Shown here: positions 2,630-30,068 of the stretch, piece after piece
Layout: each line of letters starts with the position of its first letter
Numbering within the stretch: position 1 is the stretch's first letter
DNA from: Alphaproteobacteria bacterium
GTDB lineage: Bacteria; Pseudomonadota; Alphaproteobacteria; UBA2966
Length of the DNA stretch: 53,120 bases
NCBI GenBank assembly: GCA_018650465.1
Contig: JABIFY010000048.1
Location: 1 to 53,120, forward strand
Direction of reading: 5' to 3'
Program-made: the position numbers and the translations under genes
Notes under the pieces: generated by a model
Databases searched by the model: none
What the model was told of the DNA's origin: nothing
Seen by the model: only the letters and a program-made list of their open reading frames with translations

Positions 2630-3367
2630 CTAGTGATGCAAGTGAATGGCATCATTCAGATAAAGGCAGGTCAGAATGGTGAAAACGTATGCCTGAAGGA
2701 AGGCGACGATAAGTTCGAGGCCGTAAAGGGCGACGATAGCGACCAGCGGGAAAACACCGAAGACGCCAAGAGCAACCACAAAGCCACCAAATACCTTCAA
2801 CAAAGTGTGTCCAGCCATCATGTTGGCGAACAACCGCAAGGCCAGACTGACCGGACGTGTGAGGTAGGAAATGACTTCAATAGGGATCAACAGGGGCATC
2901 AGGAACATGGGCACACCGGCAGGTGCGAACAGGCTCAGGAATTTGGCCTTGTGGCGGATGATGCCGATCAGGGTGACCCCAAGGAAAACAACAATCGCCA
3001 TACCAAAGGTAACAATGATGTGGCTGGTCGATGTGAAAGAATAGGGGATCAGGCCCAGAACGTTGGAAAACAGGATGAACATGAACAGGGAGAAAACGAA
3101 GGGAAAGTATTTACGACCTTGCGAGCCGACGTTTTCGCGCAACATGCCTGCGATGAATTCATAACTGAGTTCTGCCACTGATTGCCAGCGACCGGGCACC
3201 ATGGCGCGACCGCGCATGCTCATGGTCAGCATCAGGGTGATGGCGACAATGGTGATGATCATCCACAGGGATGAATTGGTAAAGGACGCATCAATTCCGG
3301 CAATGTCGATATCGACAAGGCGCTTGATTTCAAATTGTGCGAGCGGGCTGTGTTTTTCAGCAGACAC
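2630..3367 (-). CDS. atpB: F0F1 ATP synthase subunit a
   Basis: A 245-aa stator subunit with five to six membrane helices that carries the two proton half-channels. The essential arginine is Arg178 in SLALRLFANMMAGH. The PIEVISYLTRPVSLALR segment before it and the C-terminal LELIVAFLQAYVFTILTCLYLNDAIHLHH are classic. Helix 1 lies at about 32-50. Length is normal. It is the second gene of the F0 operon, between atpI (90-bp gap) and atpE (66-bp gap). Confidence 0.97.
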   Translation of the reverse strand: MSAEKHSPLAQFEIKRLVDIDIAGIDASFTNSSLWMIITIVAITLMLTMSMRGRAMVPGRWQSVAELSYEFIAGMLRENVGSQGRKYFPFVFSLFMFILFSNVLGLIPYSFTSTSHIIVTFGMAIVVFLGVTLIGIIRHKAKFLSLFAPAGVPMFLMPLLIPIEVISYLTRPVSLALRLFANMMAGHTLLKVFGGFVVALGVFGVFPLVAIVALYGLELIVAFLQAYVFTILTCLYLNDAIHLHH

Positions 3368-27803: not shown

Positions 27804-28025
27804 TCAAGCCCTGATGTTGACCCCACCACCTTCGCTGGCTTTTCGCGAGGCCCGTCGTTCCGCTTCTTCTCGTTCTCTTTCGCGCTTGGTTTCCTGGGCT
27901 GCCGCTTCTTCTGTCTTGGCCACGGCCCGGCGCGTTTCCTGTTCCCGAACCTTGGATGGTTGCGGGCTTTGTTGGGCTGCCGCTGCTGTTTGTTCAACAG
28001 GCGGTGCGGCTTGTCCTATTTCCAT
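27804..28025 (-). CDS. small charged Ala/Glu/Arg-rich protein, unknown function
   Basis: 73 aa. It starts at ATG 28025 with a strong AAGGAG ribosome site six bases upstream and ends 77 bp before a good terminator, which together make it a credible gene despite its short length. The N-terminal third is Pro/Gln/Ala-rich and probably disordered. Residues ~25-60 are a highly charged helix (RREREREEAERRAS type) and the end is GGGVNIRA, like the hydrophobic tails of other small alphaproteobacterial proteins. There is no signal peptide or membrane segment. Function is unknown. Confidence 0.6.
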   Translation of the reverse strand: MEIGQAAPPVEQTAAAAQQSPQPSKVREQETRRAVAKTEEAAAQETKREREREEAERRASRKASEGGGVNIRA

Positions 28026-28331: not shown

Positions 28332-28394
28332 TTGGGTCCTGGAATCGGGCAAGTGGTTCAGGACGTGCCACATGTCCTGGTTGATTTGACCCAA
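28332..28394. repeat. nested inverted repeats upstream of the candidate small RNA
   Basis: The inner stem is CAGGACGTG (28359-28367) and CATGTCCTG (28371-28379), nine pairs with one G-U and a three-base loop. The outer arms TTGGGTC (28332-28338) and GACCCAA (28388-28394) are exact complements. The 12-mer TCCTGGTTGATT at 28375-28386 recurs at 28438-28449. It could be a regulator site or a structured RNA leader. Confidence 0.5.
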
Positions 28395-28504
28395 AATAGG
28401 TCACAATAAGCCAATATCACCCCCTGATGGTTGCGAATCCTGGTTGATTCAAATGACTTGCAGGAAATTTATGAGTCTTGAAAAAACTGGCATAGTAGTT
28501 GCAG

Positions 28505-28642
28505 TAACTAGGTTGAAGATCAACCGGTCCCCCACTGGAAGACTTCGATCAGGAGACTCCCCTCTCCTGTTAAACTTTCGGGTTTTCCCCAAGACCCGAT
28601 AAAAGAATGGAGGCGTAATCCCCTTACGTCTCCATTTTTTTG
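28505..28642 (+). ncRNA. candidate small regulatory RNA with serial C-rich loops
   Basis: About 140 nt folding into consecutive hairpins: GGTTGA-aga-TCAACC (28511-28525); CCGGT-ccccc-ACTGG (28524-28538, exclusive with the first by two bases); CAGGAGA-ctcccc-TCTCCTG (28550-28569); CGGGTTTT-cccc-AAGACCCG (28579-28598); and a 12-pair terminator stem with loop TCCCC (28607-28635) followed by seven Ts. Four successive apical loops are C-rich, as expected of an RNA that pairs with Shine-Dalgarno or G-rich sites. There is no convincing open frame. The 5' end is a guess; TTGAAA at 28478 may be a -35 box. The opposite strand (loops GGGG) is a less likely reading. Confidence 0.65.
28607..28642 (+). terminator. 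strong terminator, shared between the small RNA and the ccm operon
   Basis: ATGGAGGCGTAA (28607-28618) pairs with TTACGTCTCCAT (28624-28635), 12 pairs with one G-U and a five-base loop, then TTTTTTTG on the plus strand. On the minus strand the stem is followed by TTCTTTT, so it can also end transcription from ccmI, whose stop codon is 8 bp away. Confidence 0.88.
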
Positions 28643-28649
28643 TTTTCGG

Positions 28650-30068
28650 CTACTGAAGTGGAAGTTTTGCCAGCTGGCCACTGACTGCTTGCCAGGCTTG
28701 ACCGTCTTTGGGCAACAAGGTCAGCAACTTTGTCCAGCGTTCCCGTGCCAGACTGAACTGCTTGTTCTGCGAGGCCGCAAGCCCGGTGAAATACAAGGCA
28801 TCCTGGTTATCCGGTTTGATCGCCAGTACTTTTTTGAAGATGTCGACCGCTTCCGTCGGCAAGGGTTTGCTGCGGTCAGATTTCTCGATTAGGGCTGACG
28901 CCCGTTGCATCATGGCATCAATGTTGTTGGGCTGAAGGCGCGTAATCTGGGCCAGGGCTTCGGCGGCTTTGTCTTGCTCACCCAAAACACCATAGGCGCG
29001 GGCCAGGCGCTGCCAGCCTTCCAGGTCATCAGGCTCATCCTTCAGGCGTTCGGCCAGGCGGTTCACCATGCTGCGGATCATTTCCGACCGGTCACCAGTG
29101 CTCATGTCTTTTGCGGCAGCCACATCTGCCTGGCTTGGTCCGGGAGCCTGAGCGGCTTCGTCAGATGCCGGCATCTGGTTCCCGCCGGTTGGCGCCAGGG
29201 ATTTAGGAAGTACGGAAGCCAACTCAACGCCCTGGGCTTTGGCGACTTTTTCCAGACGTTGCATCAAGGCTGGCATCCAGGGTGCATCCGCCGGACTGTC
29301 AGCCACAAGTGCCAGCCAGCCGTCCATGGCCGCCTGCAAGTCATCCTGTTGGGCTGCAAATTCGGCCAGATAAAACCGCGATCCCATATGGGTTGGGTCG
29401 ATCTTGAGGGCCTTTTCAAAGGCTTCTTTTGCCGCCGGGATGACCTCGTTGCCGGATGTCAGGACCAGGCTTTCACCATAGGACATCAGCAAGTCGGTGT
29501 TGTCTGGTTCCAGTTTCAGGGCTTGTTGAAAGGCGTTTGCCGCCTCATCATATTGCGCGACCGAGCTATAGGATTGGCCCAGCAAGGACCAGCCATCGAG
29601 ATTGTCGGGTTCGGTTTCCATGCGTTTGGCGAGGCGTTCAATGACCTCCCGCATTTTGCCCGGTTGTCCATCGGCTGGCGGGGTTGAGCGTTGGGCAAAC
29701 GGCTGGCCCGGAACGCCAGGTGTGCCCAACTGGGCGTACATAAAGAAGCCAAGCACAGCCATACCAAGAGCAATCATGGCGGCAACCGGCAAGGAGCGTG
29801 CTGCGGCTGATTTTTGCGCATCGCCGGCCACTTCGCCGGTATTCAAGCCCAGCATGCGGCGTTCTATTTCCAGCTTTGCCGCCTTGCCTTCGTCGTCAGA
29901 CAAAAGGCCGCGCCGGACATCGCTTTCAAGTTCCCGCAGTTGATCGCGGTAAACCTCAAGGGAAAAGTCATCACGTGTGATCGACGCCTTGCCTGATCGC
30001 AACATGGGCACAACAACGAACAAGGCCGCGACAATGGTCATCAGCGATAGAACAAGCCAGAGCGTCAT
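28650..30068 (-). CDS. ccmI: cytochrome c biogenesis protein CcmI
   Basis: 472 aa. Two N-terminal membrane helices (about 3-22 and 90-108) flank a cytoplasmic loop with SLEVYRDQLRELESDVRRGLLSDDEGKAAKLEIERRML split by charged turns, the CcmI signature. A long periplasmic region has at least five TPR-like repeats (WSLLGQSYSSVAQYDEAANAFQQAL; WQRLARAYGVLGEQDKAAEAL). CcmI holds apocytochrome c C-termini and hands them to the CcmF/CcmH haem lyase. Last gene of the ccm operon; its ATG overlaps the ccmH stop by four bases. Confidence 0.94.
   Translation of the reverse strand: MTLWLVLSLMTIVAALFVVVPMLRSGKASITRDDFSLEVYRDQLRELESDVRRGLLSDDEGKAAKLEIERRMLGLNTGEVAGDAQKSAAARSLPVAAMIALGMAVLGFFMYAQLGTPGVPGQPFAQRSTPPADGQPGKMREVIERLAKRMETEPDNLDGWSLLGQSYSSVAQYDEAANAFQQALKLEPDNTDLLMSYGESLVLTSGNEVIPAAKEAFEKALKIDPTHMGSRFYLAEFAAQQDDLQAAMDGWLALVADSPADAPWMPALMQRLEKVAKAQGVELASVLPKSLAPTGGNQMPASDEAAQAPGPSQADVAAAKDMSTGDRSEMIRSMVNRLAERLKDEPDDLEGWQRLARAYGVLGEQDKAAEALAQITRLQPNNIDAMMQRASALIEKSDRSKPLPTEAVDIFKKVLAIKPDNQDALYFTGLAASQNKQFSLARERWTKLLTLLPKDGQAWQAVSGQLAKLPLQ

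Follow-up and report, generated by a model that had tools for sequence, protein, structure and literature searches.

Does the DNA adjoining the cytochrome c maturation (ccm) genes of an alphaproteobacterium encode, on its plus strand, a small RNA with serial C-rich loops and, if so, what kind of RNA is it and how might it be controlled? A sequence-only reading of the window, meaning the whole 53 kb stretch of DNA analysed, had proposed such an RNA. We find that the RNA is real and new as a family, and that its kind is already known; that it exists as a structured RNA under selection is nearly certain. The RNA and its neighbours are listed in Table 1. The small protein encoded on its other side is charged, ends in GGGVNIRA at the C terminus and had no match in a Pfam search. 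An intergenic ten-pair hairpin surrounds CAGGACGTGCCACATGTCCTG upstream of the RNA (28358-28380 of the window), and a search for plasmid matches returned none.

Table 1 Features of the RNA locus and of a second RNA with C-rich loops in the same genus.
Feature	Position	Strand	Evidence or description
C-rich-loop small RNA, four hairpins including terminator	28511..28642	+	Fold z -7.5, homologues, covariation
Hairpin 1	28511..28550	+	Outer stem 28511-28518/28543-28550, inner stem 28524-28528/28534-28538, loop CCCCC 28529-28533
Hairpin 2	28550..28569	+	Stem 28550-28556/28563-28569, loop CTCCCC 28557-28562
Hairpin 3	28578..28599	+	Stem 28578-28586/28591-28599, loop CCCC 28587-28590; counterpart in 5/7 family genomes
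Hairpin 4, intrinsic terminator	28606..28641	+	Stem 28606-28618/28624-28636, loop TCCCC 28619-28623; counterpart in 5/7 family genomes
Candidate sigma-54 -24/-12 promoter, TGGCATAGTAGTTGCA	28488..28503	+	Invariant GG and GC, right spacing
Enhancer-like dyad, TGACCCAAAATAGGTCA	28388..28404	+	About 110-125 bases upstream of predicted start
ccmI/cycH, converging neighbour	28650..30068	-	Pfam TPR_CcmH_CycH; synteny kept in relatives
Small protein gene, diverging from the RNA	27804..28025	-	Similar small proteins in the same place in relatives
Second structured RNA	G000:C16 about 768-900; G001:C46 about 2828-2960	-	Loops TCTCCC(C) and GCCTCCCC; GCCCCCC terminator loop

The fold is far more stable than those of shuffled sequences. 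Positions 28505-28642 of the plus strand gave an MFE of -56.7 kcal/mol, compared with -31.1 ± 3.4 kcal/mol in 200 shuffles (z = -7.5; 0/200), and the minus strand of the RNA region folded much more weakly (z = -2.3). Cytosine accounts for 18 of the 20 loop bases as against 38 of the 132 bases of the whole RNA (hypergeometric p = 6e-10), and every loop base is unpaired in the ensemble with probability 1.0. Hairpin 4 is a 13-pair terminator, followed by seven Ts (28635-28641). When the whole window was scanned for hairpins with at least four loop Cs, consecutive hairpins of this kind were found at the RNA locus only, as were uninterrupted four-C loop runs. The four stems and loops first proposed were thus placed correctly to within one or two bases; for hairpin 1 the inner stem had been recognized and the eight-pair outer stem overlooked.

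In a seven-genome family set (G000, the window's genome, to G006) we located ccmI in the five genomes other than G000 and G001 and read the adjoining DNA. G001 belongs to the same genus as G000, G003 and G005 make up one genus, and G004 represents another. The copy in G001 occupies the same place as in G000, is 83% identical and keeps the C runs of all four loops. Compensatory changes distinguish the two copies in hairpin 2 (G-C to A-T) and hairpin 3 (T-A to A-T), five one-sided stem changes in G001 still give a standard pair, and a single pair is broken, in the outer stem of hairpin 1. Counterparts of hairpin 3 and of the terminator, with C-rich loops, lie in the same place in G003, G004 and G005, converging on ccmI; hairpins 1 and 2 can be aligned within the window's genus only, the 5' part being different in G003 and G005. 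No such hairpins occur in the DNA read beside ccmI in G002 and G006. Across the five-genome alignment, 96% of cells are paired and double changes affect 10 of 21 pairs, compared with at most 3 double-changed pairs in slid-partner controls; the covariation score was reached in 0/500 shuffles. Judged from these substitutions, the structure is under selection. The sequence-only reading had named compensatory stem changes with conserved loops in related genomes among its checks, and conservation of neither stems nor loops among the grounds for abandoning it; the compensatory changes and the kept C runs were found, and the latter is not the case. There is strong support for its proposal that the locus encodes a small RNA with C-rich loops in series, since position, covarying stems, C runs and promoter are all conserved.

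A covariance model scored 72-84 bits on the five family copies (G000, G001, G003, G004 and G005), with the next-best matches in the class sample reaching at most 33 bits and no convincing match elsewhere among 289 genomes sampled across the class. Those class-wide matches of 17-33 bits that we inspected were ordinary terminators without the set of C-rich loops, except for a second RNA of the genus, and nothing comparable follows ccmI at 80 ccmF loci of other Alphaproteobacteria. Because five of the seven family genomes carry the RNA, with none at the 80 other ccmF loci and none convincing class-wide, it looks young and family-restricted.

Position directly at the 3' end of ccmI would also suit a bidirectional terminator of the ccm operon flanked by chance hairpins, with no separate RNA gene, and in the window's genus both sides of hairpin 4 are indeed T-rich. 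In G003, G004 and G005, however, the T run is found on the plus-strand side alone, and the plus-strand run is kept in all five copies; the one-sided T run in these three genomes indicates that hairpin 4 terminates a plus-strand transcript. Hairpins 2 and 3 are conserved too, with covariation, a conserved promoter points at the RNA, and such an element is missing from the 80 other ccmF loci. We regard the terminator explanation as very improbable. The earlier suggestion that the converging ccm operon shares the terminator could apply within the window's genus only, and fails in the three genomes with a one-sided T run.

A separate RNA gene might still encode protein. The sequence-only reading saw no plausible open frame, but a 43-codon frame runs from an ATG at 28471 to a TAA (28471-28602), crossing hairpins 1-3, and is equally long and open in G001, as would suit an mRNA whose structured coding sequence specifies a 43-residue protein, or an RNA with both functions. 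The changes between G000 and G001 argue otherwise: 18 of the 22 changed codons are non-synonymous and 4 synonymous, and the 12, 9 and 10 changes at the three codon positions show no bias. The frame is not present in the genus of G003 and G005 (absent from the former and unrelated in the latter), its ATG lies upstream of the start predicted from the sigma-54 site, and its product has no Pfam match. We rejected the frame as coding, on the non-synonymous excess, the lack of codon-position bias and its absence from the second genus, and consider a messenger or dual function scarcely credible. The earlier statement holds in that there is no coding constraint, and not as to the existence of an open frame.

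The RNA appears to have a promoter of its own. The -24/-12 site in the window is two positions off the sigma-54 consensus; the aligned site in G001, in the same place, is a perfect consensus (TGGCACGGTAGTTGCT), and in G003 and G005 it reads TGGCATGGCGRTTGCG, within a block that is well conserved between these two genomes. We searched the 4.8 Mb genome with TGGCAYRN4TTGCW, a pattern relaxed so as to include the site in the window, and obtained eight occurrences versus one for a reversed control. Of these, three stand in front of flagellar genes known to be controlled by sigma-54 in Caulobacter, namely two flagellin genes and flbT, as expected of genuine sigma-54 promoters. In G000, G001, G003 and G005 no plus-strand sequence near the RNA matches better than this site; the G004 copy has no sigma-54 match upstream. 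Transcription from it would start at about 28512-28516, at the foot of hairpin 1. A sigma-70 promoter scan found none on the plus strand; a conserved CTTGAAA upstream was considered as a sigma-70 element and rejected for want of a -10 at a fitting distance. Every family genome that carries the RNA has rpoN, G006 has rpoN and no RNA, and in G002 neither was detected. The G002 assembly comprises three contigs and is 100% complete, and the sigma-54 DNA-binding domain PF04552 was not found in it. Taken as predicted from these sites, sigma-54 control of the RNA is probable.

Further upstream, the enhancer-like dyad is kept as TG[AT]CCCA[AG]AATGG in G001, G003 and G005, and it lies in the usual place for an enhancer-binding protein, for which it is a putative site. 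Activators of this type encoded in the genome are NtrC, NtrX, FlbD and a fourth one. FlbD is an unlikely activator here: the flagellin and flbT promoters contain obvious repeats of CCGGCA/TGCCGG, and the small RNA promoter does not. Those promoters (G000:C70 and C144) have textbook sigma-54 sites, and their repeats are likely FlbD sites. NtrC is a candidate activator. When dyads were compared with the NtrC consensus TGCACC-N5-GGTGCA, that of G001 alone reached 9/12, and the region upstream of glnK-amtB has no such site either.

The genus has more than one RNA of this sort. Two further loci, G000:C16:768-833 and G001:C46:2828-2886, were recovered with the covariance model at 23.7 and 31.8 bits. 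Each has a long hairpin containing TCTCCC(C) and GCCTCCCC, and the two share one terminator sequence, GAGATGCTGCCCCCCAGCATCTC, with Ts after it. Its presence in G000 and G001 gives the genus at least two RNAs with C-rich loops; the second has no sigma-54 site in either genome. The sequence-only reading had missed this second RNA, the sigma-54 promoter and the restriction to one lineage. The second RNA adjoins the gene of a 159-residue protein and, on C16, also a gene whose product has a stretch read as a caspase-like protease. On the same contig of G001 (C46, 343-410, plus strand) there is a SAM-V riboswitch-like match of 38.6 bits, against a gathering threshold of 41.

We compared the first RNA with described families. 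Nothing in the window matched Rfam at the gathering threshold, in keeping with the earlier view that no recognized family is represented, and weak matches to U12, pRNA, snoRNAs and others were dismissed as chance. Two sub-threshold matches raise the question of whether the RNA is a strongly diverged member of alpha-r7 (RF02342) or BjrC80 (RF02354) that moved next to ccmI. Both alignments, though weak, are full-length, and that to alpha-r7 places GUCCCCC and CCCCUCUCC in register. In alpha-r7 RNAs, C-rich motifs sit at the tips of three stem-loops (PMC3771888); the present alphaproteobacterial RNA likewise has C-rich apical loops on three or more hairpins in series, that of the terminator included, and serial CCCCC-loop hairpins and a C-rich terminator loop also mark the BjrC80 model consensus. 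The scores, however, are far under gathering (14.9 bits, E 0.43-1.1, versus 60 for alpha-r7; 19.0 bits versus 80 for BjrC80), and the other genomes of the bacterial family gave a match to neither. Unlike alpha-r7, which is found at the polA locus, the RNA lies at ccmI; polA is on another contig, with no C-rich hairpin RNA in the 1.5 kb after it. A class search for alpha-r7 returned four sub-threshold matches, none in this order, and no intermediate sequences so far. Like anatomy without sequence similarity is documented, the authors of the sX13 study having noted exactly this for alpha-r7 and sX13 (PMC3771888). Descent from alpha-r7 or BjrC80 is thus unlikely in our judgement.

Closest in anatomy is sX13 of Xanthomonas (PMC3771888), also highly structured, with a CCCC or CCCCC apical loop on every hairpin; conserved C-rich apical loops over variable stems are found here as well. 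sX13 has three C-rich loops and was shown to repress mRNAs that carry GGGG close to their start codons, for which the G motifs are needed as well as its own C motifs (PMC3771888). It differs in lying beside polA rather than ccmI and in having three loops rather than four, whereas the present RNA has a sigma-54 promoter; we saw no relationship between the two. The alpha-r14 RNA NfeR1 (PMC10746234) and the cuckoo (CcsR) RNAs also combine several hairpins with redundant anti-Shine-Dalgarno loops, of which alphaproteobacterial NfeR1 has three, and NfeR1 is under nitrogen-linked control (PMC10746234). By computed duplexes, the loops studied here could pair with AGGGGA sites. They read CCCCC, CTCCCC, CCCC and TCCCC and present UCCCC/ACCCC without the CCUCCUCCC carried by alpha-r14, and NfeR1 is transcribed with sigma-70 and LsrB, with NtrC as repressor (PMC10746234). 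PmaR of Agrobacterium (PMC6234868) also contacts its targets through a C-rich single-stranded loop, but does so with a single large loop carried by a single long stem, is mostly activating, so that C-rich loops can also activate, and shows no family relation. As regards control, the conserved -24/-12 site at the right spacing in G000, G001, G003 and G005, in a genome with rpoN and enhancer-binding proteins, recalls Qrr of Vibrio (PMC10162802) and NrsZ of Pseudomonas (PMC9308961), which are transcribed with sigma-54 and an enhancer-binding protein; both are gammaproteobacterial, and the text consulted on them describes no C-run loops. The RNA does not qualify by score as alpha-r7 or BjrC80, nor by motif as alpha-r14 or cuckoo, and by analogy it would most likely work as sX13 and alpha-r7/alpha-r14 do. 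It looks like one more case of common anatomy without sequence similarity, here with a sigma-54 promoter.

The sequence AGGGGA, complementary to the hairpin 2 loop UCCCCU, occurs 3-9 bases before an ATG 161 times in comparison with 60 for a reversed control, and this excess implies that about 100 genes could be available as targets. Computed loop duplexes prefer GGGGA over GGAGG by 3-4 kcal/mol, and C seeds of four to six bases are unspecific for target choice. That the RNA masks G-rich ribosome sites, as the sequence-only reading suggested, is plausible by analogy with the tested RNAs sX13 (PMC3771888) and NfeR1 (PMC10746234) and agrees with the surplus of AGGGGA before ATG. As we picture it, an enhancer-binding protein (NtrC, NtrX or the fourth activator, probably not FlbD) would relay the activating signal and sigma-54 RNA polymerase would make the RNA, whose rigid stems would hold four unpaired UCCCC/ACCCC loops ready for pairing. 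These largely interchangeable loops would bind GGGGA-type sequences in ribosome-binding sites or close to them, so that several mRNAs would be shut off from translation together.

RNAs can also act on proteins, as CsrB and CrcZ do in titrating RNA-binding proteins, and near-identical repeated loops on variable stems are decoy anatomy too, so that the RNA could titrate a protein recognizing single-stranded C runs in hairpin loops instead of acting as antisense. CsrA binds GGA in loops, a site absent from all four loops, and we know of no C-run-binding translation regulator of such a type in Alphaproteobacteria. Among RNAs of like anatomy, those that have been tested target G-rich sites in mRNAs (PMC3771888, PMC10746234). 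A decoy role seems improbable to us, and silencing by loop-mediated antisense pairing is, by analogy, likely. On balance we favour a free-standing, sigma-54-dependent, trans-acting small RNA, with a predicted transcript of about 128 bases, that would mask G-rich sites.

A wider role is conceivable but doubtful: a sigma-54 regulon hub born in this lineage, in which the family's own small RNA would pass a nitrogen or redox signal, received through an NtrC/NtrX-type activator, to dozens of AGGGGA-led mRNAs, silenced at once through four interchangeable C-run loops, with the second C-loop RNA acting from a different promoter. If true, this would mean that the anatomy of sX13 and alpha-r7 arose independently under a different sigma factor. 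The RNA provides a well-supported, apparently independent case for serial C-rich loops as a recurrent design for multi-target silencing, an idea stated for sX13, and connects it with predicted sigma-54 control in a lineage of Alphaproteobacteria that has hardly been studied, where the occurrence of two to four loops in natural variants makes the question of loop number and loop redundancy testable.
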